Shown here piece by piece: positions 4,060-32,676 of a stretch of 32,676 bases of DNA; position 1 is the stretch's first letter, and each line of letters starts with the position of its first letter. The stretch comes from a virus. The position numbers were made by a program, and so were the translations under genes. Under the pieces are notes generated by a model that was not told the origin of the DNA, ran no database searches, and saw only the letters and a list, made by a program, of their open reading frames with translations. Where the stretch lies: IMG/VR virus record IMGVR_UViG_3300030331_003871, positions 1-32,676 of that record; one strand, 5' to 3'.

Positions 4060-4523
4060 CAAATATTATTATAAATAATATAATAGATGATCCTGATCAA
4101 TATGTAAACAATATACTTGAGGGAGAGTTTATAGATGTTCAGGACGGCGATAATGTTTTTAAAGGAATTCAAGTTCGATCTAATGACGAGCTACAACAAA
4201 AGGTGGAAAAAGCTTTTCCTCAATATTTTGTCACTTACAATTTTGTGAGACAGTCTCCAGTTAATCAAAAGGAACCAAATTTTATACATACGGATGAAAT
4301 GATGGGGGACATGACAATACTTTTATATTTAAATAAAAAATATCCAAAACAAGCTGGAACCACACTTTATCAAGATGACAAACCTATGTGTGTTTTCCAT
4401 GCTGCGTATAATAGAATGGTAATATTCGATTCTAAAATCCCACACTCTAGAAACTTATATAAAAATTTTGGTACCAAAAAAGATTCACGTCTAGTTCAAG
4501 TAATGTTTATAAAATTAAAATAA
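4056..4523 (+). CDS. 2OG-Fe(II) oxygenase, DUF6445/prolyl-hydroxylase-like
   Basis: This 155-residue protein carries the non-haem iron facial triad of 2-oxoglutarate dioxygenases: HTD (H78, D80), then PHS (H130), and a 2OG-binding type arginine in SRLVQVMF (R145). The strands around them (MTILLYLN and MVIFDSKIPHSR) fit the double-stranded beta-helix core. The length is close to a minimal catalytic domain. The gene starts within the stop of the GroES-like gene and its stop overlaps the next start, so it belongs to the same transcript as the terminase. Substrate is unknown; a virion or host protein, or nucleic acid, is possible. Confidence 0.75.
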   Translation: MTNIIINNIIDDPDQYVNNILEGEFIDVQDGDNVFKGIQVRSNDELQQKVEKAFPQYFVTYNFVRQSPVNQKEPNFIHTDEMMGDMTILLYLNKKYPKQAGTTLYQDDKPMCVFHAAYNRMVIFDSKIPHSRNLYKNFGTKKDSRLVQVMFIKLK

Positions 4524-14745: not shown

Positions 14746-17700
14746 ATGCCTAATACACAAAGAAATTTTGTAGCTGGAAGAATGAACAAGTCTCTAGATG
14801 AGAGACTGGTACCGAATGGTGAATACATCGATGCGTTAAATGTTCGTTTGGGATCTACAGAAGACTCCGAAATTGGTGCGGTAGAAAACTCCAAGGGAAA
14901 CACTCAACTAACTTTTTTACAATATGAAGAAACCGGAAGCGGAGAGACGGCTACGTTTCTAAGTTCGGACGCTGTTTGTATAGGAACATTTGAAGATGGG
15001 CAAGAAAACCGTATATATTGGTTTGTCCACGACCCTAATTTTTCAAAAGGCTTAACAAAAAAATTAGACTTAATTGTTTCTTTAAATCCTAATACTAACA
15101 ATTTAGCATACCACGTAGTAAGTATAGATGATGGGTCGGGTGTTAATACAACTTTAAACTTTAATTCTAAAAATCTCATAACTGGTGTTAATAAAATTGA
15201 AAACCTTTTATTTTTTACAGATAATGTCAACCCACCTAGGTTTATAAATGTTCTTGAAAATTACCCTAATCCAGAATTTAATCAAGATTTAATAACTGCA
15301 GAGCAGTTAATGGTAATTAAAAAGCCACCAGTTGAGTCACCAAAACTTACCCTTAAATTTCAAACTACCGCATTAGGTGATGATTTTTTAACTAACAGAT
15401 TTATATGTTTTGCTTATAGATATCAATATAGTAATGGAGAGTTTTCAGCTACTTCTCAATGGTCAGAAATAGCTTTTGATCCTGGAATGTATTTTTATGA
15501 TTTTGGCACAAACACTAACGAGGGTATGATTAACACCATATCTGGTATAGATATTGTTTTTAACAGCGGAAGCGAGTTAGTAAAAGCTGTAGAGATACTA
15601 TACAAAGAAAGTCTGAGCAATGTAATAAAAATAGTAGAAAAACTTGACAAGGGATTATTAGGATATGCTGACAATACTGATTATAGTTTTGCATTTAACA
15701 ATAGTAAAATATTTACAGTTTTACCTGAGTCGGAACTTTTAAGACTGTATGATAATGTGCCTCTTAGAGCTGTAGCTCAAACTATAATGGGCAACAGGTT
15801 AGTTTATGGTAATTATTTTGAGGGTTATGATTTGGTGGATTTATATACAAACCCTGTACAGCAACAATATAGAGCAGAGCTTATAGAAAAAGAAGTTGTT
15901 GTAACCGAATTGATAACATCTACTTCATCGGGCACTTATACTTATGGCAGTTCACAAACTATTGCTGATTCTGTTTTAAATGTTCAACTAGGCAACCTGA
16001 ATGTTTTTACTCAATTAGTGGCTGGTGCTTCTATCAATATAGAGTTTGTTTTTGAGCACTCTAAATATGACCCAACAGCTTCACAGCCCACAACAACTAC
16101 AGATAACATAACCATACAATTTGCGTATAATTTACCTCGTGATTATACCTCAGTATTTGATTTAGTATCAGATACTGACTTTCAAGAAGCTATTGGAACT
16201 TCTACCAATATAAAACCAGTTTATGATGCAGCGGGAGCTAATTCATGTACTGGATTTACTTTGACTGATAATGTTAATTGTTTAATACCTACAAATCAGA
16301 CAACGAGCACAGGTACAATAAGCAAATATGCTAGTGGTATTACATCAAGCACACCTGCAGGTGGTGAGCCTATTGCCATACTAAACAACACCCCGGGGTC
16401 TACAAGTATTAATTTACAATTACCGGCGATGAGGTATGTTGCTGATCCAGCTAGTCCAGCGGCAGGGTTTTATGAATATTACAAAATTGTTTCTTCAACT
16501 GCTACTTATAATTCTACTAGCACACCTAAAAGTTTACATAGTAATAGAGGATATGAAATAGGTATTGTTTACATGGATGAGTTTTTAAGATCATCGACTG
16601 CCTTGACAAGCACAAATAATACAGTATACGTTCCATGTCGAGCATCAAGAAATCAAAATGCAATCCAAGTTACTATACCTTTTGGACAAAGAGCGCCATC
16701 TTGGGCAAGGTTTTATAAGTTTTGTATAAAGCCAGATAAAAGCACATATGAAACTATATATTCTGAAAAATATTTTGAGGACCCTGACAGCAATAGCGTA
16801 TTCTTTTTATTAGAAGGTGAGAACGCAGCAAAGGTAGAATCTGGCACTAGGCTTGTTGTAAAAAGAGATAGTGGAGGCGCAGTAGAGCAATGTGTGATTG
16901 CTACAATAACAGATAAAAGCACGAAGCCATCTAACTTTTTAAAAATTAGAAACCCTAACGATACTACAACGTATGCGACTGAACCACCACAGGATCCTTT
17001 TGAGGTTGGATATTATATTCCCATACCAGCGGGAGCTTACGCAGAAATAGTACCATCTGGATTTAATATTTCACAAGAACAAACCGTAGGCGGAAATGTA
17101 GTTTATTACCCACCCCAAAGAACAACATTTCCAGCATTAAATAAATCTAGAGGTTATCCTATAGGTAGGGCTAGAGTTAATATAATCAACCCGAACCCTG
17201 ATTATGCAAGCGCCGTGCCTACTCAGTATAAATATTTTGATTATACTATACCTGTAAATAGTGTAATAACTATTAGAGTTTATCAAAATCGAGAAGGAGG
17301 TAATCGTAAAAAAGGTAGAGGTTGTGAATTTAGACGAAACTTATATGAATCACCTGAACTGGTATCGCAAGCTAATTATGATAATTTTTATCAGTGGTTT
17401 AACGGAGACAATATCGCAAATAAATTAATAGCAGAAAGTCAAACGGAAGTAGGAGGCGGAGGAACCATAGGAAATGTGTATAATACAGCTTTACTTACTG
17501 GTGCAGCTACAGAACCAGAAAAAACTATAAATGATGGCAACGCAGGTATTTTAAGCCCTGGCAATCCATCCACTTCAACCATATTAGTCGCTCAAGACAC
17601 AAACTATTATCAGTTTTATAGAAGTGATCCCGCAGCTGGTGGCGATAATTCATTATGGTTTGTAGCTACTGGCACATTAAGCTGTAAAAGTTTTGCTGGC

Positions 17701-20526
17701 ATCGGCGGTCACGCATCTAATGTTGAAATAGAAATAACAGTAGAGAGAGCTAATCAAGCAGGTGTTGTAGTTTTTGAAACAGAACCTTCAGATGCGTCAC
17801 CTGACATATGGTTTGAGAATGATTTGTCTTTTAAAATTAGTAATGTGGGTGAGCATTTTGGAAACGTACAAAACCAAAACATACAAACAGCTACCCCAGC
17901 TATTATAGACACTGGTTTTTTTGACTGCTTTACTTTTGGTAATGGAGTTGAAAGTTACCGTATAAGAGATTCTTTAAAAGGTGAAGCCTTTACATATGGA
18001 AACAGAGTAACAACCACTGCAGCTCAAGAATACAAAGAAGTACATAGATTTGCTGATTTGACATATAGCGGAATTTTTAACAATGAAAGTAATGTAAACA
18101 AACTTAATGAGTTTAATTTAGGATTATTAAACTTTAAAAATTTAGAGGAGTCTTTTGCATCCATACAAAAAACTGTAGCAAGACAAACAGACATATTGGT
18201 ATTACAAGAAGATAGAATATCTTATGTTCTAGCTGGTAAAGATTTATTATCTGATGCTGGAGGTGGAGGCGCTTTGACATCGGTCCCAGAAGTTTTAGGA
18301 CAACAAATAGCAAGACTTGAAGAGTTTGGTATTAGTAGAAATCCAGAAAGCTACGCAGAGTTTGGTGCTGATAAGTTTTTTACTGATGAGCAAAGAGGCG
18401 CAGTCATTCAACTAAAAGGTGGGGCATATAACAATGAATCTCTTACCGTTATCTCTGAAGCGGGCATGAGATCTTATTTTAGAGATTTGTTTCATAGCAC
18501 TTTTGATCAGCAAAAAGTAGGAGGTTTTGATCCTTACATGAACGAATATGTATTATCCTCCAATAGCAATCGATTACCTTTTGTTGGTGAATGTGATTTA
18601 TGTGGAACTAGTAGAGATATACAATTACAACCAAACACTCCATTTACATTTTGTGTTAATGTAACTCAAGAAGTAGGTACTGTTAATATAGATTATGTTT
18701 TACCAAGTGGCGGAAATAACAATATAGTTACTGAAGATGGTACGGGTACAACAAATGAAATAATGCACACAGAGGTTAATTCAGCAGCTCCAAGTGGATC
18801 TGATATTGTTACTGAGGATGCAACATCCAATAATTCATATACCATCACAGTTTTGTATAATGGTAACAGCTTTACAACTGGTGCAGTTACTGCAAGCGGT
18901 ACTTTACAAATCGACAAAAATTCAGTTTATGCTGATATAGTTGCTATAACCGTTTCATCAAATGCAATTACTACTGATAGCGTAGAGATTACAACATTTT
19001 GTCCTGAACCAGATCAAATAACTATAACACAAGTATCAATAACAAGTAATGCAGAAAGAGGTTTATTTATACATAATGAGTATAGATGGAAAGACGGATT
19101 GTTTGAATCACCTTTACATTCTGAGTTAGTCGAGTTTAACAACGGCACTCAGTATCCTTTATTATCTCAATATGTGGAGCTCACGGGTTCTCAGGGTGCT
19201 GGAGTTATACCAGATGATGGAGCAGAGGTTACTATAATTAGCAACAAAATTGACTTTGATGATTTTGAATTTGATTATAATACTAATAATTTTAGATATC
19301 TAAGAACTGCTACTTATTATGGTAAGACTACAACCGATTTAGCAGCTTTATTAGCTGCGGCAACTAAAGCTACACCAATAAATACGAGATTTGCCCCACA
19401 GTTTTCAGCACAATTTACTATGCCTGCTGGAACTGCAACAGAAAAATTCTTATATCTAATTTGGGATTATAGAAAGTCTACAAGAATACAAGCTTGTTAT
19501 TCAAGTGTATCAAGCACAGATGCGTGTTGCACATGTGCAGTTGAACCAACTCCAACAGCTACACTTACGCCAACAGCAACACCGTATCAGTGTTATAAAT
19601 ATGAGTTAGAGATGCCTGGTACTTGCGCTGCATATGCAATTATACCGGTTTTCAATACTACTTCGGTAGTTTCCTATACTGACTGTCAAGGGTCGTTAGT
19701 AAATGTTAGTGTCGATTACCCAGAAATACTAGACGTATACGCTCAAACAGGTACTGTTTCTGCAACGGCAGGTGCAACTATACAACTTTTAACGGCAAAT
19801 GTTGGAGGTAGTGTAGGTACCTTCTTTTGGACTGGATGTGATGGAACGCCTATTACTGAGACTGTTCAACCTGGTGCATCTAATAAAATTACAAGATGCG
19901 CAATAGATACACCGCAACAGCCGGTAGGTCAATCTGGAACTATAACACAAATTTCAACATGTGGACTTGTATTTTATAAAGCGCAAATGTGTGGCACAAA
20001 CACGGATGTATTTTTGCAGGGTCAGTCAAGTATTGGTACATTTAATTTAGGTGATGTTGTACAATTTACACCTATAAATACAGATTCAATTACAACGGGT
20101 AATCCTACTGAAACACTTTGTGCTACAATAAGCACTGTAGGAATTGGAAACGGACAAGATGGTGTAATTAATTTACAAGCGTCTGGATGTGGCGACCAAA
20201 CAAATTGTCCCCAACCAGTTACAGTGTACAAATGGAGATTTAATTTCATAAGACAAGACGGAGGTAGTGTGACGCCATTGACTTGTCAAACACGAGAATT
20301 TTGCCAGGATTTTGTTTATACAACTGCATCTAGTTTTAGCACAACAACCCCTGGATTCACCAGATTTTATCTAGATATTAATTTAACTATCCCATTTGTA
20401 GGTGCTAATAAATATTATGCAGCTAGAGTACCAGCAGCAGGTGAAACCATAGCTACTGTAGGATTTTCAGAAGCCAAATTGCAGATGGATTCTAATGGTT
20501 TCGTAACCGAACTTATAATATGTTAA
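14746..20526 (+). CDS. Giant stabilization/tail-hub-type protein with Cys-rich C-terminal modules
   Basis: A 1926-residue protein. The N-terminus (RNFVAGRMNKSLDERLVPNGEYIDALNVRLGS) matches the start of phage stabilization (P22 gp10-like) and tail-hub proteins, which sit under the portal. The long middle is beta-rich with YRYQYSNGEFSATSQWSE, RYLRTATYYG and FLYLIWDYRKSTRIQACYSS (about 1570-1590), followed by a CCTC cysteine cluster (1594-1597). A Pro/Thr linker (1601-1613) then leads to about 313 residues of Cys-containing modules. These include two with a TxCxG core (SYTDCQG, FWTGCDGTP), one FYKAQMCG module and a final FYLDINLTIPF module ending in Cys. Attachment or receptor binding is inferred for the C-terminus. 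The extension makes the protein much longer than P22 gp10 (472 residues). Confidence 0.72.
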   Translation: MPNTQRNFVAGRMNKSLDERLVPNGEYIDALNVRLGSTEDSEIGAVENSKGNTQLTFLQYEETGSGETATFLSSDAVCIGTFEDGQENRIYWFVHDPNFSKGLTKKLDLIVSLNPNTNNLAYHVVSIDDGSGVNTTLNFNSKNLITGVNKIENLLFFTDNVNPPRFINVLENYPNPEFNQDLITAEQLMVIKKPPVESPKLTLKFQTTALGDDFLTNRFICFAYRYQYSNGEFSATSQWSEIAFDPGMYFYDFGTNTNEGMINTISGIDIVFNSGSELVKAVEILYKESLSNVIKIVEKLDKGLLGYADNTDYSFAFNNSKIFTVLPESELLRLYDNVPLRAVAQTIMGNRLVYGNYFEGYDLVDLYTNPVQQQYRAELIEKEVVVTELITSTSSGTYTYGSSQTIADSVLNVQLGNLNVFTQLVAGASINIEFVFEHSKYDPTASQPTTTTDNITIQFAYNLPRDYTSVFDLVSDTDFQEAIGTSTNIKPVYDAAGANSCTGFTLTDNVNCLIPTNQTTSTGTISKYASGITSSTPAGGEPIAILNNTPGSTSINLQLPAMRYVADPASPAAGFYEYYKIVSSTATYNSTSTPKSLHSNRGYEIGIVYMDEFLRSSTALTSTNNTVYVPCRASRNQNAIQVTIPFGQRAPSWARFYKFCIKPDKSTYETIYSEKYFEDPDSNSVFFLLEGENAAKVESGTRLVVKRDSGGAVEQCVIATITDKSTKPSNFLKIRNPNDTTTYATEPPQDPFEVGYYIPIPAGAYAEIVPSGFNISQEQTVGGNVVYYPPQRTTFPALNKSRGYPIGRARVNIINPNPDYASAVPTQYKYFDYTIPVNSVITIRVYQNREGGNRKKGRGCEFRRNLYESPELVSQANYDNFYQWFNGDNIANKLIAESQTEVGGGGTIGNVYNTALLTGAATEPEKTINDGNAGILSPGNPSTSTILVAQDTNYYQFYRSDPAAGGDNSLWFVATGTLSCKSFAGIGGHASNVEIEITVERANQAGVVVFETEPSDASPDIWFENDLSFKISNVGEHFGNVQNQNIQTATPAIIDTGFFDCFTFGNGVESYRIRDSLKGEAFTYGNRVTTTAAQEYKEVHRFADLTYSGIFNNESNVNKLNEFNLGLLNFKNLEESFASIQKTVARQTDILVLQEDRISYVLAGKDLLSDAGGGGALTSVPEVLGQQIARLEEFGISRNPESYAEFGADKFFTDEQRGAVIQLKGGAYNNESLTVISEAGMRSYFRDLFHSTFDQQKVGGFDPYMNEYVLSSNSNRLPFVGECDLCGTSRDIQLQPNTPFTFCVNVTQEVGTVNIDYVLPSGGNNNIVTEDGTGTTNEIMHTEVNSAAPSGSDIVTEDATSNNSYTITVLYNGNSFTTGAVTASGTLQIDKNSVYADIVAITVSSNAITTDSVEITTFCPEPDQITITQVSITSNAERGLFIHNEYRWKDGLFESPLHSELVEFNNGTQYPLLSQYVELTGSQGAGVIPDDGAEVTIISNKIDFDDFEFDYNTNNFRYLRTATYYGKTTTDLAALLAAATKATPINTRFAPQFSAQFTMPAGTATEKFLYLIWDYRKSTRIQACYSSVSSTDACCTCAVEPTPTATLTPTATPYQCYKYELEMPGTCAAYAIIPVFNTTSVVSYTDCQGSLVNVSVDYPEILDVYAQTGTVSATAGATIQLLTANVGGSVGTFFWTGCDGTPITETVQPGASNKITRCAIDTPQQPVGQSGTITQISTCGLVFYKAQMCGTNTDVFLQGQSSIGTFNLGDVVQFTPINTDSITTGNPTETLCATISTVGIGNGQDGVINLQASGCGDQTNCPQPVTVYKWRFNFIRQDGGSVTPLTCQTREFCQDFVYTTASSFSTTTPGFTRFYLDINLTIPFVGANKYYAARVPAAGETIATVGFSEAKLQMDSNGFVTELIIC
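19546..19584 (+). repeat. Pro/Thr-rich linker (PTPTATLTPTATP)
   Basis: Residues 1601-1613 of the large protein form a simple PT/PTAT repeat between the hub-type body and the Cys-rich modules. Such linkers usually tether separately folding surface domains. A similar Pro/Thr linker occurs at 20734-20805 in the next gene. Confidence 0.7.
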
Positions 20527-20535: not shown

Positions 20536-22623
20536 ATGGGAGCAGCTGCAACGTTTTATATAGACAATCCTAGTTTTGAAAAAGCAACAACTGTTTTTTC
20601 AGACGCAGCTTTGACTACGTGTGCACCAAATGGTTTTTATCAGATGGGGGGTATTGTAAGAGAGCAGGTAGACTGTGTGGCTGGTTTGGGAGGTCGACTT
20701 TTACCTGCAGAAGACTGCCCTTCCTGTGGAGCACCTCCAACAACTGCGCCTCCTTTACCAACGCCAGCGCCTCAAACAACGCCGCCTATAACGCAACCTC
20801 CTCCAGATCCTTTATATTACAAGCTTATATCTTGTCCTACAACATCATCAGGTGGAGGTGGAACATTAAAATATACTGACATAACACCAAGCACCTCTTC
20901 GGCAAATCAAAGGTATCAAGACAGCACGCAAGACCCAGCCATATTTTATACATATGATGGTAGCGCTGGTATTTCCAATCCACCACCAAATACAATTGAC
21001 AGAAATATACAAATAGTCCCTGGAGTATTTAATTGTCCTACGTTACTTCCTGTATACAATTTTTATAATGCCATATTATGTAATAACGTAGACTCAATTA
21101 TAGTGAGATCACCAGAGGGGACAACCTTTGTAGCTGGACAAGTTGTGAAAGTTATAGGATCTACACTATGTTATGAAATTAGGACTATAGCGGCACAAAC
21201 ATCCATATATAGAGATTATGACACTAGTATTCCTCCTTATCCTAACTGCGAGGCATGTGATCCAACTCCTTTAGAGCCAAACGGTTTTCGTATTACAAAA
21301 CCTGGTGCGCCAGACAACGAAGTGCTTCAAGACACTAACAACCCTAGAAGTCAAGGAGAGCGAATATTGACAAGTTTTGATTTACAAGATTGTTGGACAC
21401 TTCAAGAGCCAATCATAACTGTAACTGCTAATTTTATAAGAGATGATTGTCCTCCCGATTTACAGTGTACACTTACTATTTTGTATGGCGGACCAAGTGG
21501 TGGTACGTTTAGCGCTACAGAATGTAATGGAACGCCTTTGAACACAATAGCTCTTTCTCCGAATGAAGAACGAAGTTTATGTTTCCAAACCGGAACACTA
21601 GTAACATCTGGTATTACTCAAGATGACCAAGGAGCATGTGATCCTAGTGCTATCGTTGATCCATATGATTACTATAATCTAAAAAGATGTGATGGAGTAA
21701 GTGGAGTGCTGATTGCAAAATATAATGGAGCTCAAATAAATAACGGTCAATCTGTTAAAATAGCAGGGATTTGCTATTATGTTGATTCCCCCTCAACCTC
21801 TAAATTCACTATGTCGATTATAGATGGCACACAAATATTTGATAATTGTAGCGAGTGTAACCCATGTGTAGGTGTTACTCAATTAATTTTAAGCTATGAT
21901 CCTAATAGTAGTTGTTTAACGACCAATTCGTCTGCAGTCCTTGCTAATAACACAACTTTAGCTACAGCTACCTTTATTTATCCAGCAGGCGCAACAAGTT
22001 GTACTACATCTAATCCGGCTCCTGTTGGATTTTACACTGGCGGAGGCATTTCAAGATATTGGAATGGTTTAGCTTTTACGCAAACTATTAATTGTACTTC
22101 AACACCACAAACTGTAACTGCTACATTAACAAGAGTAGATAACCAAATACAAGGTCCATCAGCTGGATATACTTTAGGTGGTGACCAAGTCAATGATGCT
22201 GTGGACGCACCATATGGTAGCTCAACAGCTTTCTCATTTAATACTACAGTTACAGTTAATAATGGATTTACATTTACAACTCCATACAATGTTACTAACT
22301 TTAGCGGCACTTTAAACACTCAAGATTTAACAGGTACCACAGTAATAACAGGGGAAGTGGTACAAGACGCACCTACATATTTCTATCAGATTCAACAATG
22401 CGGAACAGGTCAGATATATAATATGGAGGCTCCCTACACAATTAATTCAAATACAGTAGTATTTGCAAGACTAAAAGGAGTTGGATTTGTTACATTTTGT
22501 GGAACTGTTCTAGGAACTGCACCATCTTCAGCACAAATAACCGCTGATTTTGTACATATCATAACAAGCAGCGGGTGTAATAACCGTGTTTGTACTGGAA
22601 ACTACAACTACGATCCGTTTTAA
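20536..22623 (+). CDS. Cys-rich modular virion surface protein
   Basis: A 695-residue protein that begins directly inside a module (ATFYIDNPSF...FSDAALTTCAPNGFY), with no signal peptide. After CPSC (61-64) comes a Pro/Thr linker (67-90). Module type A (YY.L..C...G..VK..G..CY...nC..C) occurs clearly at 173-241 and 377-441, each closed by a CxxC (CEAC, CSEC), with weaker copies near 94-110 and 623-680. A TxCxGTP module lies at about 323-354. A second FYTGGGISRYWNG segment (about 478-510) resembles the N-terminal module. The preceding protein ends in the same module types, so the two probably form one adhesion apparatus. No known enzyme domain is seen; receptor binding is inference. Confidence 0.6.
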   Translation: MGAAATFYIDNPSFEKATTVFSDAALTTCAPNGFYQMGGIVREQVDCVAGLGGRLLPAEDCPSCGAPPTTAPPLPTPAPQTTPPITQPPPDPLYYKLISCPTTSSGGGGTLKYTDITPSTSSANQRYQDSTQDPAIFYTYDGSAGISNPPPNTIDRNIQIVPGVFNCPTLLPVYNFYNAILCNNVDSIIVRSPEGTTFVAGQVVKVIGSTLCYEIRTIAAQTSIYRDYDTSIPPYPNCEACDPTPLEPNGFRITKPGAPDNEVLQDTNNPRSQGERILTSFDLQDCWTLQEPIITVTANFIRDDCPPDLQCTLTILYGGPSGGTFSATECNGTPLNTIALSPNEERSLCFQTGTLVTSGITQDDQGACDPSAIVDPYDYYNLKRCDGVSGVLIAKYNGAQINNGQSVKIAGICYYVDSPSTSKFTMSIIDGTQIFDNCSECNPCVGVTQLILSYDPNSSCLTTNSSAVLANNTTLATATFIYPAGATSCTTSNPAPVGFYTGGGISRYWNGLAFTQTINCTSTPQTVTATLTRVDNQIQGPSAGYTLGGDQVNDAVDAPYGSSTAFSFNTTVTVNNGFTFTTPYNVTNFSGTLNTQDLTGTTVITGEVVQDAPTYFYQIQQCGTGQIYNMEAPYTINSNTVVFARLKGVGFVTFCGTVLGTAPSSAQITADFVHIITSSGCNNRVCTGNYNYDPF
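20734..20805 (+). repeat. Pro/Thr-rich linker in the Cys-rich protein
   Basis: Residues 67-90 (PPTTAPPLPTPAPQTTPPIT and following Pro residues) form a low-complexity hinge between the first module and the rest. It corresponds to the PTPT linker of the upstream gene. Confidence 0.7.
21052..21258 (+). repeat. Cys-rich module type A, copy 1
   Basis: Residues 173-241: VYNFYNAILC, then FVAGQVVKVIGSTLCYEI, then YPNCEAC. The same order of aromatic start, first Cys, GQxVK, CY and terminal CxxC recurs in copy 2 at 21664-21858. Confidence 0.6.
21664..21858 (+). repeat. Cys-rich module type A, copy 2
   Basis: Residues 377-441: YDYYNLKRCDG, then INNGQSVKIAGICYYV, then IFDNCSEC. It aligns with copy 1 over its whole length of about 65 residues. 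Confidence 0.6.
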
Positions 22624-22665: not shown

Positions 22666-23928
22666 ATGGAATCTATTTTTATTCAAATCCCTAGTTACAG
22701 GGACCCTGAGCTATTACCTACTTTAAAAAGTTTACTAGACAATGCCATACATCCTGAAAGACTGACCTTTGGTATATGCCATCAGTTTCACCCAGATGAT
22801 ACGTGGGATACTTTAGATGCCTACAAAGATGACTCAAGATTTAGAATATTATCTATACCTTGGGATGAATCACGAGGTTTGTGTTGGGCGAGGCACCAGA
22901 TACAAAAACTTTGGAAGGGAGAAAAGTGGACTCTACAACTAGACTCGCATCATCGTGTCATAAAAGGATGGGATCAGGCGTTGATATACATGGCTAATCA
23001 AACAGAGGTGTCTAAACCTATTATCACAGCATACGCAGGTATGTATAAGCCAAATAGCGAAGAGCCTTTAGAGCAAACCCCATATAAAATGGTTGCACAA
23101 AAATTTATGGACTACGGAGGTATAGTCTTTGCACCAACCCACATACCTGCCTGGCAGTCTCTAACACGTCCTATACCAGCTCGTTTTGTATCGGGTCATT
23201 TTTATTTTACTTTGGGTATACATTGCAAAGAATACGTGTATGATCCAAACCTTTACTTTCAAGGCGATGAGATATCTTTATCATTACGATCTTACTCTTT
23301 GGGATATGATTTATTTCATCCACATAGAACAGTTGTATGGCATGAATATACACGTGAGGGTAGAAATAAACACTGGAACGATTTTCAGCGCCCTGAGCGC
23401 AATAAAATAAATAAATCATGGTTGGATATGGACAAGGAGTCAAAAGCTCGTTTAAGGCAGCTTTTAGGCACTGAGGACAACGGGTATACTTTATACCCAC
23501 ACGACATTGGTAGAATACGATCTATAAAAGAATATGAGGACTATGCCGGGGTTGATTTCAAACTAAAGAGATTACATCAGTCAACAAAAGAAGGAATAGA
23601 TCCGCCTACAGTTTTAGACTCTGATGACAACTGGCGTATGGTAAGACATAAAATACACAAGGGCACGGTGTATTGGACAGATGAATATCCCAAAATTAAA
23701 TCTTCTCTTGGTTGTACATGTAACATACAATTTATTATGGTAGCAATAGAAGATCAAGCTGGTAAAATATTATTCAGAGAAGATCTGGCGTCAGCTCAGT
23801 ACATAAACGGCGAGCTTACATTTTTGCCTTATGAGTTTGAGTCCCCATACATCCCTTATAAATCTATAGTTTGGACATATACTACCAAAAAGCAGTGGGT
23901 CCACAAAATAGAAAAGCAAATAATTTAG
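22666..23928 (+). CDS. Glycosyltransferase, GlcNAc-transferase (PF11397)-like
   Basis: This 420-residue protein has a GT-A-type N-terminal domain: IFIQIPSYRDPELLPTLKSL (nucleotide-binding start), then SRGLCWARHQIQKLW, and the metal-site segment LQLDSHHRVIKGWD (D93 with H95/H96). Later come FVSGHFYFT, the GDEISLSLRSYSLGYDLFHP acceptor-side segment (200-219) and VVWHEY (223-228). This order is characteristic of the Skp1 GlcNAc-transferase-like family. About 120 C-terminal residues (from about 300; DDNWRMVRHKIHKG, then beta-rich) form an extra domain. No membrane anchor is present, so it acts in the cytoplasm. Lying among tail genes behind its own promoter-like element, it may glycosylate virion proteins; host glycan modification is the alternative. 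Confidence 0.78.
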   Translation: MESIFIQIPSYRDPELLPTLKSLLDNAIHPERLTFGICHQFHPDDTWDTLDAYKDDSRFRILSIPWDESRGLCWARHQIQKLWKGEKWTLQLDSHHRVIKGWDQALIYMANQTEVSKPIITAYAGMYKPNSEEPLEQTPYKMVAQKFMDYGGIVFAPTHIPAWQSLTRPIPARFVSGHFYFTLGIHCKEYVYDPNLYFQGDEISLSLRSYSLGYDLFHPHRTVVWHEYTREGRNKHWNDFQRPERNKINKSWLDMDKESKARLRQLLGTEDNGYTLYPHDIGRIRSIKEYEDYAGVDFKLKRLHQSTKEGIDPPTVLDSDDNWRMVRHKIHKGTVYWTDEYPKIKSSLGCTCNIQFIMVAIEDQAGKILFREDLASAQYINGELTFLPYEFESPYIPYKSIVWTYTTKKQWVHKIEKQII

Positions 23929-24766: not shown

Positions 24767-24774
24767 TATCTTTG
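24767..24774 (+). promoter_or_regulatory. TAnnTTTG match overlapping the acetyltransferase start
   Basis: TATCTTTG is a perfect consensus match, but it overlaps the only usable start (TTG 24772) of the next gene. If active, its transcript would start near 24778, after the TTG. Either it is not a promoter or it drives only the genes further downstream. Confidence 0.25.
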
Positions 24775-25191
24775 TCTATAAATGGATTAACAGTACGAAA
24801 CCTAACTGAACTAGATTATAGCAAACATTTAGTTCAGTGGTGGGAAGACTGGAACTGGGTTGCTCCAGTGAAAGAATTTTTACCTGACTCTGGTAAAGGA
24901 GGGGTGATGGTTTTGGACAATGATATACCTGTGTGTGCAGGATTTATTTATATGACAAACTCTAAGGTGGCATGGGTAGACTGGATTATATCCAACAAGA
25001 ATTATAAAGTAAAGCCGAATCGTAAAATGGCAATAAAGCTTCTTATTAAAACTTTAACTCAAATGTGTAGGGATCTTGGATTTACATTTAGCTATGCTTT
25101 GATTAAAAACAATAGTCTTATGGATACATACAAAGACTTAGGATATTCAGAGGCAGACCAATACAATAAAGAAATGATTAAAAAATTATAA
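24772..25191 (+). CDS. GNAT-family N-acetyltransferase
   Basis: A 139-residue protein of the GNAT acyl-CoA-dependent fold: LTVRNLTELDYSKHLVQWWEDWNWVAP at the N-terminus, CAGFIYMTNSKVAWVDWIISNK (strands 4-5 region), RKMAIKLLIKTLTQMCRDLGFTFSYA (acetyl-CoA-binding helix region), and a terminal YKDLGYSEADQYNKEMIK. The start is TTG 24772; the ATG at 24782 is in another frame and stops after one codon. The LVQWWEDW...FLPDSGKGG form is one I associate with acetyltransferase-annotated proteins in marine podovirus structural regions. The substrate is unknown; a virion or host protein amine is possible. Confidence 0.75.
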   Translation: MSINGLTVRNLTELDYSKHLVQWWEDWNWVAPVKEFLPDSGKGGVMVLDNDIPVCAGFIYMTNSKVAWVDWIISNKNYKVKPNRKMAIKLLIKTLTQMCRDLGFTFSYALIKNNSLMDTYKDLGYSEADQYNKEMIKKL

Positions 25192-25192
25192 T

Positions 25193-25954
25193 ATGGCAGC
25201 AGCAACCGCAATTATAGGAACAACATTAGCAGTGGGACAAGCTGGTATGAGTTTTGCTCAAGCTAGTAAACAAGCAAAAGCACAAAAGAAAGCAGAGCAA
25301 GCCGCAGAAGATGCGATGAAAGCTGCTCGTGCAAAGTTAGAAGAAAATGTATACGAGGGTTTAGATATTAATCTAAAATCTTTTGAAAGAGAAAGAGACG
25401 CTCTGGCAGGAATCGGTGCGCAGCTAGTTCAAGCTGGGCAAGAATCTGATCGAGGAGCTGCAGCAACTGCCGGTAGAGTAGCTATGGCAGCTGCAGAACA
25501 AGCCACAAATATTCAAGACAGAGAGATTGATGCTTTGGAGGCATTAGAACAAACTGTTGCTGCTGAAGAGGCAAAGCTTCAACAAGCTAGAGTAGGCTTA
25601 GATTTAGGAGAAGCTGAAGGAGCGCAACTTGCTGCTAGAGATGCACAGGAAGCAAAAAATGCTGCAATCACGCAAGGAGTTCAAGGTTTAGCTAGCGCTG
25701 GTTTAGGTCTTATGGAAAGCGCAGATTTATTCGCTAACTCACCGGAAGCAATACAAAAAAGACAAGCAGCTAGACTTTCTCGGAGAGTGGAATCGGGTAA
25801 AGTACTTCCAAGCGGAGTAAAAGTAAACCAGGGCGCTTTACAAGATATGCTAAGGGGCGGTGGAATTGATGGTTCTGCTGATGCTTTATCTAAAGGAGGA
25901 TTGCAAAATATTTTTTCTGGTGTGTCAGGTCTATTTCGTAAAAAAGGAAATTAA
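25193..25954 (+). CDS. Putative internal virion (ejection) protein, Ala-rich
   Basis: This 253-residue protein starts with a weakly hydrophobic Ala/Thr/Gly segment (MAAATAIIGTTLAVGQAGMSF). A long Ala/Gln/Glu-rich helical region follows (SKQAKAQKKAEQAAEDAMKA, later REIDALEALEQTVAAEEAK), then a Gly-rich C-terminus with SGLFRKKGN. The composition and position before two much larger proteins resemble podovirus internal core proteins of the T7 gp14 kind, which are ejected with DNA. The assignment is by composition and context, not by a motif. The start lies two bases after the acetyltransferase stop. Confidence 0.55.
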   Translation: MAAATAIIGTTLAVGQAGMSFAQASKQAKAQKKAEQAAEDAMKAARAKLEENVYEGLDINLKSFERERDALAGIGAQLVQAGQESDRGAAATAGRVAMAAAEQATNIQDREIDALEALEQTVAAEEAKLQQARVGLDLGEAEGAQLAARDAQEAKNAAITQGVQGLASAGLGLMESADLFANSPEAIQKRQAARLSRRVESGKVLPSGVKVNQGALQDMLRGGGIDGSADALSKGGLQNIFSGVSGLFRKKGN

Positions 25955-25959
25955 ATTTT

Positions 25960-27954
25960 ATGGCTAGTTATTATAAGTATGCTGAAAGAGATGTAGCTAA
26001 TGAAATAGACTGGAGGGCTATAACGGGTGAGATAACCCAAAACATGAAAGATATCGAAAAGGCACGTGAAGATAAACGTGTAGCGATACAAAAAGCTTCT
26101 GGTGACGCTATGAAAAGAATGATGGAAAAACCTCAAGGTGAGGATTTTCTTGAAAACAATCGAGTCGCTAACTACGCACAACAGGCACAAGAAATACAAT
26201 TAGAAAATTTACGTCTACTTAAAAGAGGTGACATATCTGAAAGGGAGTATAGTTTGAGATTCAACAATCTTACCACTGGTACCGATATGGTATTTAATTT
26301 ATCTAAAGAATATCAGGATTCCTATCAAATGCACATGGACAGAATGCAGCCTGATGAAAATGGAATAGTTCAAGCTAGCGGAATAGAGGGGGATATGTTA
26401 GGAAAAGCAGAACAATATGGTAATCCAAAAGATTCACAGTATTACATCAACCCGTTAACAGGGGAGGTAAATCTAGCTTTAACAAAAGAAGATGGACAAT
26501 CTGGGCAGGTAACTATAGGAGATAGTCAATTTGATTTGATGAGTTTAGGTACAGCCCGTAATATTATATTTCAAAAAGTAAACAAATATCAAACACAAAC
26601 TCAAGTTGAAGGTTTGGTAGAAGGATTAAAAACTGAGGTCAATGAAGCATTAGGAACTGGTGCATTGAAGGGTTATATAACCAAAGAAAAAGGATTAGAT
26701 GTTGACGGACTGTTTGAGACAAAAGACGGAAAGCTTGTTCCCTCAACTGATGAAGGTAAAGCAATTATAGCAAGTATAAATGCTACATTTGCTGGAGACG
26801 ATTTTTCAAGGGCTAGTTTTTTATTTGACACTGTGAAAACAGTTGATGGAGAAGTAGTTGAATTAGTGTATCCAAATCCAGAGGGTAATTTCCCTGAGCT
26901 AAAAAATAACCAAATAAAAATGGTTTTAAATAATCAAAATAGATATGTACCTGAAATCACTGATGAGCAAAACAGAATCATAGAAAAAAATATGGTTGGC
27001 TTAATAAAAAGTGGTATCGATAAAGAGTTTGGAATTACAGCTGATACACGATTGACTGACTATCAAAGATTCCAAGTTCGTAAAATCAACAGAGAATTGA
27101 GAGAAAAGAAAGATAGTTTGCAGCTTCGTTTAGATACTATATCTGAATTGTATAGAGGTGGAGATGTTGACTTGCAAGCTGCTGCAACGTTTTTTAGAGA
27201 TATAGATCCAAACATTGTAAAAATAGATAGATCAGATACAGGAGTTGCTGTGACCATATTAGATAGAGAAACGGGCTTACCAGAAGTTCGAGATATTAGT
27301 TTTTTTGGTGAGACTGATGGGGAGGTAGATACAAACAAACCATTAGACGAAAGAGACTTTATAAAAGCTGCTTCAAACATTTTATTAGGTAAAGAAGCTG
27401 CTGAATCTGCTGAATATTTAAACTTATATAATAAGAAACAGAAAGTTGGTGACGAAGAGGTTTTTGTTTACAATCGTAAACTTCGTAACGAAGGACAAGC
27501 TACTGCGGATACATCAATTACAGATGGATCAAGGCGTCCTGGTAAAGATACCACGGAAATAGATAGTTATTTAGAAAGTAGATTTTATGGAGCAGATACG
27601 GAAAGAAAAGAATCTGGGGCGTCAACTGGTATAGATTTCCGAGATGAAGACTTTGAAGTGGCTAAACAAATTATGACACGTTTTGCAGATGATAGAGTGC
27701 CAATAAATGCAAAAGCTGTTGGTACTTCTCAAACAGTAGACGCTCAAGGAAAGCCAATCATGGGAAGCGGATTTAAGGATTTAGTCGAGATAAGAATAGA
27801 CGGTTACAACAAACCACCGCTGACAATCCCGGCGGATTATAATAAAGATAGTGATGCTAGAAACGCTGAAAACCAGCTTAGAGAATACATTAAAGCATAC
27901 TTAATAAGCCAACAAGGCGGAGGCGGCGGAGGACCTTATTCAAAATATAACTAA
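25960..27954 (+). CDS. Putative large internal virion protein
   Basis: A 664-residue, charged, largely helical protein. N-terminus: YYKYAERDVANEIDWRAITGEITQNMKDIEKAREDKR. Middle: segments such as MQPDENGIVQASGIEGDMLG and YINPLTGEVNLAL. A long helical stretch DYQRFQVRKINRELREKK lies near 365-385, and the C-terminus is QQGGGGGGPYSKYN. It follows a short Ala-rich internal protein and overlaps the giant protein start by one base, matching the two-or-three large internal protein arrangement of podoviruses. No enzymatic motif was found. The ejection role is inferred. Confidence 0.5.
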   Translation: MASYYKYAERDVANEIDWRAITGEITQNMKDIEKAREDKRVAIQKASGDAMKRMMEKPQGEDFLENNRVANYAQQAQEIQLENLRLLKRGDISEREYSLRFNNLTTGTDMVFNLSKEYQDSYQMHMDRMQPDENGIVQASGIEGDMLGKAEQYGNPKDSQYYINPLTGEVNLALTKEDGQSGQVTIGDSQFDLMSLGTARNIIFQKVNKYQTQTQVEGLVEGLKTEVNEALGTGALKGYITKEKGLDVDGLFETKDGKLVPSTDEGKAIIASINATFAGDDFSRASFLFDTVKTVDGEVVELVYPNPEGNFPELKNNQIKMVLNNQNRYVPEITDEQNRIIEKNMVGLIKSGIDKEFGITADTRLTDYQRFQVRKINRELREKKDSLQLRLDTISELYRGGDVDLQAAATFFRDIDPNIVKIDRSDTGVAVTILDRETGLPEVRDISFFGETDGEVDTNKPLDERDFIKAASNILLGKEAAESAEYLNLYNKKQKVGDEEVFVYNRKLRNEGQATADTSITDGSRRPGKDTTEIDSYLESRFYGADTERKESGASTGIDFRDEDFEVAKQIMTRFADDRVPINAKAVGTSQTVDAQGKPIMGSGFKDLVEIRIDGYNKPPLTIPADYNKDSDARNAENQLREYIKAYLISQQGGGGGGPYSKYN

Positions 27955-30900
27955 TGAACGAGCAAGCTTTAAGAGACGCATATGAATCGTTTACTGCTGG
28001 AGGGTATCAAGGAACTTTTGAGGACTATATAAAACTAATAAATAGTAATCCTGAAGCACTACAAGACACCTATTCTTTGTTTAAAGAAGGGGGATATACA
28101 AAACCCATTGAAGATTTTCAAGTCCTTTTGGGGGTAAAAAAAAAAGACGGTGGGGAATTTACCTCAGAGGTTGGTTTATTGGAGCAACCAACTGCTCCAC
28201 AGGACTCTTTAATAAATCAGACAGAAGATCAAGTAGATGGTTTAAAAAGAGATCAAGAAGGAGAAGTTGATTATTTTCAGGGGACCTTCGGAGATATATT
28301 AAGAGGCTTTGATAGTGTAGCCCCTATTGGTATAGGCGACTTTGTTGATGATATTGCCAGAAGCGTAGCATCTGGATATAGACGTGGTGTATCATCAGAG
28401 AACGCTGCTGACCTTTTAGTTCGTGGTAACAAAGCTAGTGATGAAGATATTTATTCTTTTATAGAAGCAAACAAAAATGCTCAAGCTTTACCGCCATCCA
28501 AAGAGATGCAAAACTACATGAAAATATATGAAGAGAACGACAAAAGTTTTATGGGTGTAGTTCTAGGTTTGATACAAAATCCCACGGTAATTCCAGAAAT
28601 TATTACTAGTTCGTTTACTTCTATGGCAACTAACACTGATTCTCTGCTTGCAGGTTTGTCCACTGTTGGGACAGGCGCAGCTATTGGAGCTACAGCGGGA
28701 GGTGTTGGGGCTATTCCTGGAGCTGTTGCTGCTATACCTTACGCATTTGCTACTGCAGGCACCGTGCTTGAAATGGGCGCAACTTTTGCAGAGGTGTTAG
28801 AAGAAGAGGCTGGTGGTGAAGAACTAACACCAGATAAAGTTCGTGAGCTTATAAGCACACCCGAAGTATACGAAAGAATACGAAACAAAGCTGTCACAAG
28901 AGGATTAACGATAGGAGCTATAGATGCATTTACTGTTAGAATCGGTGGCACCATTGCTAAAAAAATAATTAAATCAGCCAAATCTAAACCTATAACGAAG
29001 GCTGCTATTGCTGGAACTGTGACTGAGGGTGTTGGAGGATCTGCCGGTGAGGCTGCAGCTCAACTTGCTACAGGAGAAGAGCTAGATATATCTGATATAG
29101 CACTAGAAGGTATTGCAGAACTGCCTATGGGTGTCATAAATTTAGCTACACAAAAAAAAGTAAAACCCCCCATATATGTTGTTAATGATGAAAAAACTAC
29201 GAAAGAAGAGGTAGACAACATGATTGAAACAATGAATAGAGGGGAGCTAGAGAAGTTACAATCTAATATCAAAATAGAAAACGATCCAATAACAACAAAA
29301 AAACTACAAGACCGTATTGTTTTTTTACAGAAGAAAGAGCAAATAAAAGAAGCACAACCTGATTTAAACGAGCCCACATTGGAGGCTATAACAGAAAAAC
29401 AAGTTCAGATAGATGAGAAAGAAAATAATAATACTGAAGTTGCTAAAGAAGAAAAATCAAAGTTACGTCAAGAAATAAAAGAGCTTTCTGAAAACCAACT
29501 TGATCCAGTAGAACAAACAACCAGAGATCAAAGACCAGTTGAAGACATCTCCAATCAAGAACAGGTATCTGAAAATCTATTTATTAATAGAAGCCCTGAA
29601 CAAGTTCAGCTAACGCCACAAAGACAGGACACTGTAAAGAAAGTAATTGATATAGCTAAAGTTGGAGCACAATCTGTAAGAAAAATATTACCTAATATGC
29701 GTATAGTATTGCACGAAACGCAAGATCAATATCAACAAGCAACCAATAAAACCGGTAGGGGATTTTTTGATACGCAAAATACCATACATATTAATTTAAG
29801 TAAAGCCACCTTGTCTACTGCTCCGCATGAGATATTCCATGCCGTGTTTTTAAAAAACATCAAGACTAATCAGCAGGCTGCACAACAAGCAGAGAACATG
29901 ATTAAATCTGTTCGTAAGGTTCTTCCTGAGAATAATCCCCTTGCTAAACGTATTGATAAGTTTGCTCAGTCTTACTCGGACGTATCACAATTACAAAATG
30001 AAGAGAGAGCTGCTGAATTGTTCGGGATTATGGCAACCGAGGAAGCGTATAAAGCTTTACCTGCACCTACCAAAAATATTATTATAAAATTTTTAGAAGA
30101 CATCGCAAAGACTATAGGTCTTGATTTAAACCTAACAGAGTTTACTAGAACAGACGAGGATGTAATTAATTTATTAAACACTTTATCTCAAAAAGTAAGA
30201 ACCGGACAAGAAATACAGTTAGCAGATATAGATATACTTGAGCAAGGCGAGCTTATAGAACAGGCTGATGGACCTATACCATCAAACATACCAGAAGAAG
30301 GACCGGATATAGATCTTAATAGAGAAGCTCGTAGTCCTTTCCAGTTAGACAATGGTGGTATAAATATTAATGAAATTAGAAGGGGTAGTATTAATGAGCT
30401 TTCTGGCGCAAACGCTTTTGTTTTTGCCGGTGATCAGGCAACCTTTGGTAAAATAAAAAGTCCTACAGGATTAGAGTACGAGTTTTTTGGAGGGTATCTG
30501 TATCCATACGGAACAGGTTTTGGGTGGGCATTCACAGATAAAACAAACGCTCAAAAAGTATTAAATAAAATAAATCAATCTGACGGCGTAGGACTTGTAA
30601 TGTCTCAAGACAAGGTAGGTGTTACTGGAAGTTTTAGATTTTTTCAATATTTAAATGCTGAAATAGCTCATGCTATTAATAAAGGCGCTAATCCTCAAGA
30701 GCTATTAGATTACGTAAATTCAAAATTACAGCTAACACAAGTAAAAAAGGCTTTAGAAACCAAAGGTCTTCCAACTCAAATATCAAACTTAGAACAATTA
30801 AATACTTTGATGCCGTTTGAAGGGAACAATAAAATTTCATATGAAATTAGATCTAATTTTACAACAGCTTTTTTCAGCGCACAATCCTTTGAAAGGTTTG

Positions 30901-32676
30901 GTATACCTCCTATACTTCCAACGGCAAAAACAGATGTAGGTGTATTAAATTATGTTAATGATCCTAGCTTAATTAATGTTGGATACGGAGATATAATTTC
31001 AGCTATTCAGTTTGAAAAAAATGGTCAAATACAAGAAGTAAGAGAGGGAGACCCAAACTATCATCCATCTTACCCATTCGTATTACCAGGTAAACCCATC
31101 ATGGTTTTTGATAGAGCAGTAGATGTTAGAAATGTATACCCACAAGCAGTTCCCAAAACAGGCTCACAAGTTCCATTAGCCGATAGGACAAAACCTAGAG
31201 CTGCTAGATCTGCAATGGGTGGACAATATATTGCTGAAGTGCCTGAAGAAATACAAACTCAAGACGCACCATTGATAAGAGAACAAAGAAGTATAGAGGA
31301 TGTAACACGTCTTTACAATATGAATACCGAAGGTTTTATACCTAAGACAGCTAATCTATCGCAACTTAGAAAAGCTGTAGAGCCATTTGGGTTTGAAGCA
31401 TTTCGTTCACGTGAGGATCAGTTCGGTAGAGGTGGTGGATTATTTATAAAGAAACCTGGGCAAAGAAGGTATAAACCTCCTCGTCTTGGTGCACGTCAAC
31501 AAGTTGAAGACAAAGATTCACAAGCTGAAGAAATAAGAAAACGATTAAATGCCAAAGATAAAAGACCGCCATCGGTCAATAAGCTATTTGGTAAATTAAA
31601 GGATGTTAAAAAAATTACATTTACTGAAAAGAATCTTTTATATAAAAGATTACGTGATCTACAAGAAGGAGCAAAAACATTACAAGTTGCACTGAGACGT
31701 GCGGAAAAAGTATTAGGTCAAGAGTTAAAAGAGTTAAGTGTTGATGGTACAATCAGCGTAAAACAAATGAATGCTATTATGTCTCGTTTGAGACGTACGG
31801 ACCTTTTGAATCCTGTAGCAAGAGATAATTTTATTGACTACATGACTCGAGTCATGGCTGATGTAGAATATACTAGTAAGATATCAGAAGCAAATCGAAA
31901 ATTAAGCAGGGCAAAAAAAGCATTAGTTAATAAAATAGGTATAGCTGCAGGAATCAAACCACAACTTGAAAGAATATTTAGCATTAAACCATCACGTATA
32001 CCTGTGAGTGTTTTGGATAATTATTTAGAACTTATAAATATATTTAGTCAGCCTAGAAAAATTTTAGATCTTCCTACACAACAACGTATAGAAGAATTGT
32101 ACGAACCTATTTTAAAACAATTAGACGAAGAATTATCCATGTCTAGTGATCTATCAGACAGGTTAGCAGAAACGGATCAGAAGGTATTCAAAGATGGTAA
32201 GTTAGACTACAGAGCCACTATACAGAAGATGCTTGATACAGGTCAAATAGATGATAGGGAGTTTGAAGTGATGCGAAAGTACAAATCACAAATCTTACCA
32301 ACACTTGAGCCAACGCAAAAAAGCGAGGCTGAAATAGAAGCTGCAAAGACTTTGCTTAAAATAGCGATTACTACGGCGGGTGACCCCAACCCAAACAATT
32401 TGCCTTCACGAGATGAAAGAGATGTAATTAGAGAATTTGGTAAACTCATAAGAACAAAAGCATTAGATTCACTAACACCTCAGGAGCTAACTAACGTACT
32501 ACGTATATTAGACAACATACAAAATGGTTACTTGCCACATGCCGCAAAGACCATGGTTAATAGGTTGAACGCAATAAATTCAGCGGCAGAAGTACAAGAA
32601 AGTATTAACAAGGCAAAGATTTTACCTGTGAGTAAAATTTATTCTAGGATTAAAGGTGTGTTGACTAGAAAAAACA
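27954..32676 (+). CDS. Giant virion-associated polyvalent-type protein with zincin motif, 3' end missing
   Basis: From ATG 27954 (one-base overlap with the upstream TAA) I read the frame to the window edge without a stop, about 1574 residues. Domains in order: two 30-residue GGY...EDF repeats (10-29, 40-59); a helical region; a hydrophobic Gly/Ala-rich segment with small-residue spacing (about 230-270) suited to membrane insertion; and a charged linker (about 400-540). A zincin-like domain follows, with PHEIFH (H625, E626, H629) and a later EERAAELFG (683-690) that could supply the third ligand. Next come a mixed domain with GGYLYPYG and WAFTD (about 800-1060) and a long helical region (from about 1220). 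This layout fits phage polyvalent proteins packed in the capsid and ejected. Peptidase activity is inferred from the motif only. Confidence 0.7.
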   Translation, partial: MNEQALRDAYESFTAGGYQGTFEDYIKLINSNPEALQDTYSLFKEGGYTKPIEDFQVLLGVKKKDGGEFTSEVGLLEQPTAPQDSLINQTEDQVDGLKRDQEGEVDYFQGTFGDILRGFDSVAPIGIGDFVDDIARSVASGYRRGVSSENAADLLVRGNKASDEDIYSFIEANKNAQALPPSKEMQNYMKIYEENDKSFMGVVLGLIQNPTVIPEIITSSFTSMATNTDSLLAGLSTVGTGAAIGATAGGVGAIPGAVAAIPYAFATAGTVLEMGATFAEVLEEEAGGEELTPDKVRELISTPEVYERIRNKAVTRGLTIGAIDAFTVRIGGTIAKKIIKSAKSKPITKAAIAGTVTEGVGGSAGEAAAQLATGEELDISDIALEGIAELPMGVINLATQKKVKPPIYVVNDEKTTKEEVDNMIETMNRGELEKLQSNIKIENDPITTKKLQDRIVFLQKKEQIKEAQPDLNEPTLEAITEKQVQIDEKENNNTEVAKEEKSKLRQEIKELSENQLDPVEQTTRDQRPVEDISNQEQVSENLFINRSPEQVQLTPQRQDTVKKVIDIAKVGAQSVRKILPNMRIVLHETQDQYQQATNKTGRGFFDTQNTIHINLSKATLSTAPHEIFHAVFLKNIKTNQQAAQQAENMIKSVRKVLPENNPLAKRIDKFAQSYSDVSQLQNEERAAELFGIMATEEAYKALPAPTKNIIIKFLEDIAKTIGLDLNLTEFTRTDEDVINLLNTLSQKVRTGQEIQLADIDILEQGELIEQADGPIPSNIPEEGPDIDLNREARSPFQLDNGGININEIRRGSINELSGANAFVFAGDQATFGKIKSPTGLEYEFFGGYLYPYGTGFGWAFTDKTNAQKVLNKINQSDGVGLVMSQDKVGVTGSFRFFQYLNAEIAHAINKGANPQELLDYVNSKLQLTQVKKALETKGLPTQISNLEQLNTLMPFEGNNKISYEIRSNFTTAFFSAQSFERFGIPPILPTAKTDVGVLNYVNDPSLINVGYGDIISAIQFEKNGQIQEVREGDPNYHPSYPFVLPGKPIMVFDRAVDVRNVYPQAVPKTGSQVPLADRTKPRAARSAMGGQYIAEVPEEIQTQDAPLIREQRSIEDVTRLYNMNTEGFIPKTANLSQLRKAVEPFGFEAFRSREDQFGRGGGLFIKKPGQRRYKPPRLGARQQVEDKDSQAEEIRKRLNAKDKRPPSVNKLFGKLKDVKKITFTEKNLLYKRLRDLQEGAKTLQVALRRAEKVLGQELKELSVDGTISVKQMNAIMSRLRRTDLLNPVARDNFIDYMTRVMADVEYTSKISEANRKLSRAKKALVNKIGIAAGIKPQLERIFSIKPSRIPVSVLDNYLELINIFSQPRKILDLPTQQRIEELYEPILKQLDEELSMSSDLSDRLAETDQKVFKDGKLDYRATIQKMLDTGQIDDREFEVMRKYKSQILPTLEPTQKSEAEIEAAKTLLKIAITTAGDPNPNNLPSRDERDVIREFGKLIRTKALDSLTPQELTNVLRILDNIQNGYLPHAAKTMVNRLNAINSAAEVQESINKAKILPVSKIYSRIKGVLTRKN

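Follow-up and report, generated by a model that had tools for sequence, protein, structure and literature searches.

Genomic setting of the giant gene

The window, by which we mean the whole stretch of DNA analysed here, comprises 32,676 bases and is an entire IMG/VR virus record, itself a fragment. Its genes run in the order TerL, portal, several virion proteins, a 1926-aa muzzle-like protein and further virion-block genes, and the giant gene that is the subject of this analysis is the last of the virion block. TerL and portal are 75% identical to those of an uncultured Manatee Spring podovirus and 45% identical to those of an Elemovirus of Flavobacterium, followed by Callevirus and Cellulophaga phage relatives. 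Matches to crassvirus Pfam families are limited to the muzzle-like protein (14746–20526; PF25731, E 2e-11), despite TerL and portal having Elemovirus and Callevirus-type flavophages as their best named relatives.

The giant reading frame starts with an ATG at 27954 and, as the initial annotation had stated, stays open to 32675, giving 1574 codons free of stops up to the end of the window. Two close viral contigs were found: L003, which supplies the gene in its complete form (2160 aa), and L002, which carries a partial protein. The features considered below are as follows.

25193..27954, + strand: two upstream virion-block genes (253 and 664 aa; phrog_13764 and phrog_35506, synteny)
27954..32676, + strand: gene for a giant polyvalent protein, probably of ejection type (1574 codons inside the window, 3' end beyond; open frame, homologues L002 and L003)
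28332..29189, + strand: N-terminal core, residues 127–412 (iterated HMM; phrog_32588, E 3.6e-47 over 127–521)
28626..28778, + strand: Gly/Ala-rich stretch, residues 225–275 (45% G+A, Kyte–Doolittle 1.59)
29634..30254, + strand: zincin-like metallopeptidase domain, residues 561–767 (alignments A1 and A3, AlphaFold topology, structural neighbours)
29826..29840, + strand: HEIFH motif, residues 625–629 (H-E-x-x-H invariant)
30000..30026, + strand: EERAAELFG, residues 683–691 (candidate third zinc ligand E683, E684 or E688, all invariant)
30255..31277, + strand: slot with swappable class-A cassette, residues 768–1108 (predicted PUA-like (YTH/EVE/ASCH) fold with helical insert)
30321..30332, + strand: left junction motif, degenerate REAR, residues 790–793 (homologues have REQK at this place)
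31278..31451, + strand: D3, a small conserved domain of 58 aa closing the slot, residues 1109–1166 (alignment A12, co-occurrence with the zincin)
31278..31289, + strand: right junction motif REQR, residues 1109–1112 (candidate zincin cleavage site)
31494..31505, + strand: junction-like RQQV past D3, residues 1181–1184

Elsewhere in the window, a gene for a GroES-type co-chaperonin (3493–4059; phrog_13932, E 2e-18) occupies the same position as cpn10 of Cellulophaga phage phi18:3, and the small protein encoded at 4056–4523 resembles three families only weakly (minor coat protein, endonuclease V, FlmC-type 2OG-Fe oxygenase). A glycosyltransferase gene (22666–23928; phrog_24687, E 2e-107) and an acetyltransferase-like gene (24772–25191) lie inside the virion block, between the muzzle gene and the putative ejection genes. 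The 695-aa protein encoded 3' of the muzzle gene (20536–22623) is about 713 aa long in L002 and L003 and has no match in PHROGs or NCBIfam.

The giant protein is most likely a virion component

We considered gene order and homology around the giant gene for indications of packaging. The 253-aa upstream protein matches a virion structural protein family (phrog_13764, E 1e-13) and the 664-aa protein matches phrog_35506; both genes are syntenic with structural protein genes of Cellulophaga phages. At the syntenic position of the giant gene itself, phi18:3 encodes gp123, whose annotation comes from MS/MS, and phi38:1 encodes gp101, whose annotation derives from similarity to another phage's structural protein. 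No direct sequence similarity was detected between either protein and the window protein. Because iterated HMMs started from phi38:1 gp101 also failed to reach the window protein, the link to mass spectrometry is one of synteny. The Elemovirus counterpart, which is homologous in the zincin domain and, via L003, in the C-terminus, is annotated as a structural protein, with no basis given in the annotation. Taken with gene position, the syntenic structural proteins indicate that the window protein is most likely packaged in the virion, in line with the ejected type of protein originally envisaged. Gene position and synteny further suggest that this phage-type polyvalent protein is probably ejected with the DNA. 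For crAss001 and other podovirus-like phages, the prevailing model has cargo of this kind ejected (PMC10172136).

Iterated HMM searches place the N-terminal core in 21 giant proteins, that of the Manatee Spring phage included. The Gly/Ala-rich stretch inside it had been described as hydrophobic: the composition is as described, and the hydrophobicity is borderline for the membrane segment suggested there (19-residue window, Kyte–Doolittle mean 1.59). Comparable stretches occur in the Elemovirus and phi38:1 giant proteins. A short repeat occurs twice in the first 60 residues (27954–28150; SFTAGGYQGTFEDYIKLINSNPEAL and LFKEGGYTKPIEDFQVLLG), and this repeat region is 45% identical in the Manatee Spring phage.

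A zincin-like domain with an invariant candidate active site

Residues 561–767 form a zincin-like metallopeptidase domain, for which zinc binding and proteolysis are predicted from conserved residues and modelled topology. H625-E-I-F-H629 is present as first reported, and EERAAELFG begins at residue 683, 54 residues later. All 61 aligned sequences keep H625, E626 and H629, and H587, H612, Y674, E683, E684 and E688 are likewise invariant in them. In the first viral scan, HExxH was kept in 76 of 76 distinct homologues, including all 33 recovered without an HExxH-containing search pattern; it was also kept in 45 of 45 further non-redundant homologues, a set that is partly ascertained because the scan patterns included HE[IVA]FHA. 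Conservation across homologues rules out a chance occurrence of HExxH. At least 273 viral contigs carry the family, compared with 117 after the first scan, and a scan of a bacterial genome collection with the zincin matched one contig (L169). This contig belongs to a MAG titled Aliivibrio and is possibly a binned phage contig.

The AlphaFold2 model places, in order, a helix, a strand ending at H587, further strands, the HEIFH helix and a later Glu-bearing helix, with good confidence in the sheet and values of only about 52–68 around the two active-site helices. Thus, the elements of a zincin core (an N-terminal helix, a three-stranded sheet and two C-terminal helices) are present at moderate model confidence, together with the ligand set of an HExxH helix and a Glu in a later helix, all of it invariant. 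The layout matches that of polyvalent-protein metallopeptidases, one phage clade of which has a conserved His ending strand 2 (PMC5512222). HExxH metalloproteins make up most of the structural neighbours found by VIA-align: lethal factor (Z 5.8), Zmp1 (5.3), selecase (4.8), PPEP-3 (4.6) and IrrE (3.9). Residues 2136–2363 of N4 gp50 align with Z 5.5 over 163 positions (rmsd 5.6), and these residues fall in the C1 domain, described by its authors as bearing a zincin-type HExxH (PMC12633501, PDB 9pnr). All VIA-align Z scores are below 8, and the absence of other folds from this comparison is no evidence. Searches of the giant protein or its parts against Pfam, NCBIfam and PADLOC gave no significant match for zincin or cassette, sequence profiles had no match in the PDB, and Foldseek against the PDB returned nothing at E <= 0.001 for either the window protein model or the L002 cassette model. 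The zincin identity proposed in the initial annotation is nevertheless borne out by the invariant site residues, by the resemblance of the predicted structure to known zincins and by neighbours that include N4 gp50.

An exchange slot next to the zincin

Downstream of the zincin, related proteins differ abruptly. L002 and L003 share 98% identity as far as the zincin extends and 97% once the following conserved domain begins; between these parts, L002 has about 350 residues that are absent from L003. The window cassette is similar in size to that of L002 but of a different type, though the two zincins are 86% identical. Conversely, the window cassette is 62% identical to that of L067 and the zincins only 40%, and the L002 cassette is 76% identical to that of L085 and the zincins 46%. 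Where D3 was found, it lies 7 to 637 residues from the zincin, and four slots are empty (7–25 residues). Cassette classes were set from the cassettes first and only then compared with a quick zincin tree, which rejects A, B and C as clades (p 4e-51, 5e-26 and 3e-41; AU p down to about 1e-51) and the empty slots as well (7e-4), and on which 27 class changes are required. By these sequence comparisons, residues 768–1108 are a swappable cassette. The domain originally placed at about 800–1060 is indeed unrecognised and contains GGYLYPYG (at 846) and GWAFTD (at 857), but its best bounds are 768–1108 and it is a variable cassette rather than a fixed part of the protein.

The slots of relatives hold an N6_N4_Mtase DNA methylase (L050, L066), ART-PolyVal (L037), LPD23 (L042, L107, L133), DUF3293 (L107), a class-I methyltransferase (L031), a Phage_L5_gp82-type domain (L110) and, in others, several unnamed families; Methyltransf_23 is also among the families matched in slots. 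As judged from sequence, the recognisable contents are mostly the repertoire of polyvalent proteins. The earlier suggestion that the window domain is an effector thereby gains indirect support, because the same slot holds known effector domains in relatives. D3 occurs only alongside the zincin in the contigs examined, and three previously unseen contigs with D3 also have the zincin.

One module is shared by the slots of L107 (2035–3120), L114 (9609–10694) and L042 (9177–10484), where it stands beside differing neighbours and starts with RQQI or REQI; it consists of LPD23 and an HELQHF stretch, possibly a second metallopeptidase. In the giant protein of the Manatee Spring phage (L005:741–12320, MW202828.1; 3859 aa), HEFGH occurs twice, and an HPNYPYG segment resembles the end of the window cassette; the arrangement there is different.

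A predicted PUA-like fold for the window cassette

Class A has 10 members and matches no family in Pfam, PHROGs or PADLOC. Isolated cassettes searched by tblastn gave no match in cultured phages. By hhalign, class A and class B are related (97%, E 1.5e-11), and by sequence class A is probably also related to two or three further classes. Class C cassettes (L012 type) have a class-A-like layout of GGxxY, WA and HxSY, with an hhalign probability of 0.6% for a relation to class A. Five elements are invariant across classes A and B: D, GG, Y, R and H-P.

The model of the L002 class-B cassette has a pLDDT of 85 and a pTM of 0.82. At 20–26% sequence identity, the window and L002 cassettes give models that are similar in strand order and share a helical insert; the two are not fully independent, because the alignment for the second model contained class-A rows. 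YTH domains rank first in VIA-align for both models (Z 6.1 and 5.9). The next rows are 2gbs (Z 3.9), presumably an EVE-type protein, for one model, and EOLA1/CXorf40A (5.0) and ASC1 (4.5), which we take to be ASCH-type proteins, for the other, whose next unrelated row stands at 4.0. Thus, the top neighbours of both cassettes come from the PUA/ASCH superfamily; the cassettes differ from it in a predicted barrel split by a large helical insert and in having no sequence-level PDB match. Because Foldseek found nothing significant in the PDB and every Z score is below 8, the PUA-like (YTH/EVE/ASCH) fold predicted for class A is a suggestion with two supports and not an assignment.

YTH, EVE and ASCH domains form one superfamily that reads (modified) nucleic acids (PMC7641849). 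The models suggest that the class-A module may bind nucleic acid, possibly modified, one conceivable use being to weaken modification-dependent restriction, and the residues invariant across classes A and B are candidates for a putative modified-base pocket (aromatic cage).

A peptide motif marks the module junctions

The borders of cassettes and sub-modules often carry R-[EQ]-Q-[KR], with K-P or G commonly in front of it and E, S or D behind. Across a less redundant set of 68 proteins, the stretch from the zincin to 30 residues beyond D3 contains 85 copies, compared with 1.1 +- 1.0 in shuffles, and the rest of the same proteins contains 18 against 6.2 expected. The 85 copies are not independent events, because many of those at the D3 edge were inherited together; copies at other borders, beside differing modules, weigh more. 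The motif is absent from the 60 residues upstream of the zincin, whereas in 49 of 66 proteins a copy follows the zincin within 700 residues. It was first noticed in the first homologue set. In the second set, 45 new and more remote homologues, there are 15 copies within 600 residues downstream (0.68 expected), found in just 10 proteins and missing downstream in the other 35. Two giant proteins that lack a zincin, phi38:1 gp101 and phi18:3 gp123, have no copy.

The 85 copies are encoded by 32 different DNA 12-mers with near-background codons, and therefore it is the peptide rather than the DNA that is conserved. A DNA recombination repeat is disfavoured by this diversity, though codon agreement within a protein is slightly above expectation (0.69 against 0.57). 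In close pairs with readable breakpoints, the breakpoints fall in linkers adjoining the motif. The occupied slot of L062 has PRQRK at both sides and the empty slot of L061 has one. Two of the three junction sites in the window are degenerate (REAR and RQQV).

Proposed processing of the giant protein and alternative explanations

These features could be explained by a phage-type polyvalent protein that is a virion component and enters the host along with the genome, and whose zincin would cut the polypeptide at R-[EQ]-Q-[KR] during or after ejection. Each slot module would be released as a free protein, as from a viral polyprotein, and the N-terminal ejection part would stay behind. In the window, the slot would supply one class-A module with its predicted PUA-like fold. 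Modules would be swapped between phages because their targets (restriction, signalling, modified nucleic acids) are host-specific. The polyvalent reading made originally fits a single polypeptide with a zincin, a PUA-like cassette and the core, and with methylase, ART-PolyVal and LPD23 domains in homologues. That a packaged and ejected polyvalent protein frees exchangeable effectors through zincin cleavage at the junction motifs is, in our judgement, evenly balanced between right and wrong. We lean somewhat against the stronger form, a phage polyprotein whose zincin itself recognises R-[EQ]-Q-[KR] and whose plug-in effectors (methylases, ADP-ribosyltransferases, PUA-like readers) are freed in the host at entry. 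Counting against cleavage are the absence of the motif from most remote homologues, the two degenerate window sites, the modest model confidence at the active site and the N4 virion RNA polymerase (vRNAP), which has the same type of HExxH domain and is packaged unprocessed (PMC5512222). The low structural Z scores, the negative Foldseek searches and the lack of detected sequence homology to the MS-verified Cellulophaga proteins also weigh against the reading as a whole.

The N4 vRNAP also illustrates a reading in which the motif is a mere linker or recombination-tolerant joint and the zincin is structural or serves packaging, as has been suggested for that polymerase, which needs the region for packaging. 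Exchange breakpoints in the same linkers, the slightly raised codon agreement and the patchy occurrence among remote homologues would all fit. However, a plain linker has no need to preserve a four-residue motif, and this one is kept as a peptide across its many DNA spellings; nor would a purely structural domain require the full catalytic set to be invariant. We regard this explanation as unlikely, while giving it some weight.

The zincin could alternatively be the effector, cleaving a host protein after injection, with slot and motif unrelated to its activity. Iyer et al. name host-protein cleavage as a possible role of such domains (PMC5512222), and among the structural neighbours are toxins and secreted peptidases whose substrates are other proteins. 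An arms race would be expected to give a variable, host-specific protease, which is the opposite of a constant zincin adjoining a variable slot, and the motif is confined to the C-terminal side of the zincin; we consider host-protein cleavage improbable. Of the two substrates originally envisaged, the protein itself or a host defence protein, self-processing is thus favoured, because a peptide motif marks the module junctions downstream of the zincin, and the host target less so. It is very improbable that another protease, from the host or the phage, cuts the motif: basic, glutamine-rich linkers are accessible to many proteases and most remote zincin homologues lack the motif, but so do the two zincin-less giant proteins examined, and the slot border D3 always came with the zincin in the contigs examined.

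Processing by the embedded zincin, the reading we prefer, builds on the proposal of Iyer et al. (2017) that such zincins process polyvalent proteins and release their domains (PMC5512222). That text holds nothing on PUA, ASCH, linkers or swapping, and has 'cleavage site' just in a reference title; in the literature cited, neither cut sites nor timing are given for phage polyvalent proteins of this kind. What is new here relative to Iyer et al. is the exchange slot, the junction motif and a concrete, testable cleavage hypothesis. A short motif that marks swappable modules makes the 2017 proposal directly testable and offers a route to unknown effectors, as any sequence flanked by a pair of the motifs becomes a candidate. 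What fills the slots, in some cases without a known family, likely serves as early-infection effectors against defences that Flavobacterium-type hosts deploy. The predicted PUA-like class would give phages their own relative of a superfamily that hosts use to detect modified DNA.

Comparison with known systems

The closest likeness is to the phage-type polyvalent proteins of Iyer et al. (PMC5512222), which share giant multidomain architecture, a mid-protein zincin with a His ending a core strand, and effectors such as methylases, ART-PolyVal and LPD23; unlike them, the window family has a single exchange slot across related phages, the junction motif and the predicted PUA-like class. N4 gp50 (PMC12633501) shares an HExxH zincin-like domain in a giant ejected protein, if ejection of the window protein is granted, but has no reported slot or junction motif, and neither the window protein nor its full-length relative has a recognisable polymerase domain. 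The Elemovirus 3694-aa structural protein (MT497072.1, QMP85339.1) has the same genome place, a zincin 30% identical over 571–884, a C-terminus homologous to that of L003 and one RQQK (residue 2079) after its cassette; it differs in its greater length, another cassette class, a DUF3293 and the lack of a detected D3. The crAss001 cargo proteins gp45–gp50 (PMC10172136), likened by place and description, are also large, encoded downstream of the muzzle gene and thought to be ejected ahead of the DNA, with no zincin or slot described. Polymorphic toxin systems (PMC3482391) likewise combine a constant carrier with exchangeable effector cassettes and embedded processing peptidases. Their toxin module is C-terminal, whereas the window cassette lies inside the protein, with D3 and a long C-terminus after it, and its carrier is a phage virion-type protein.
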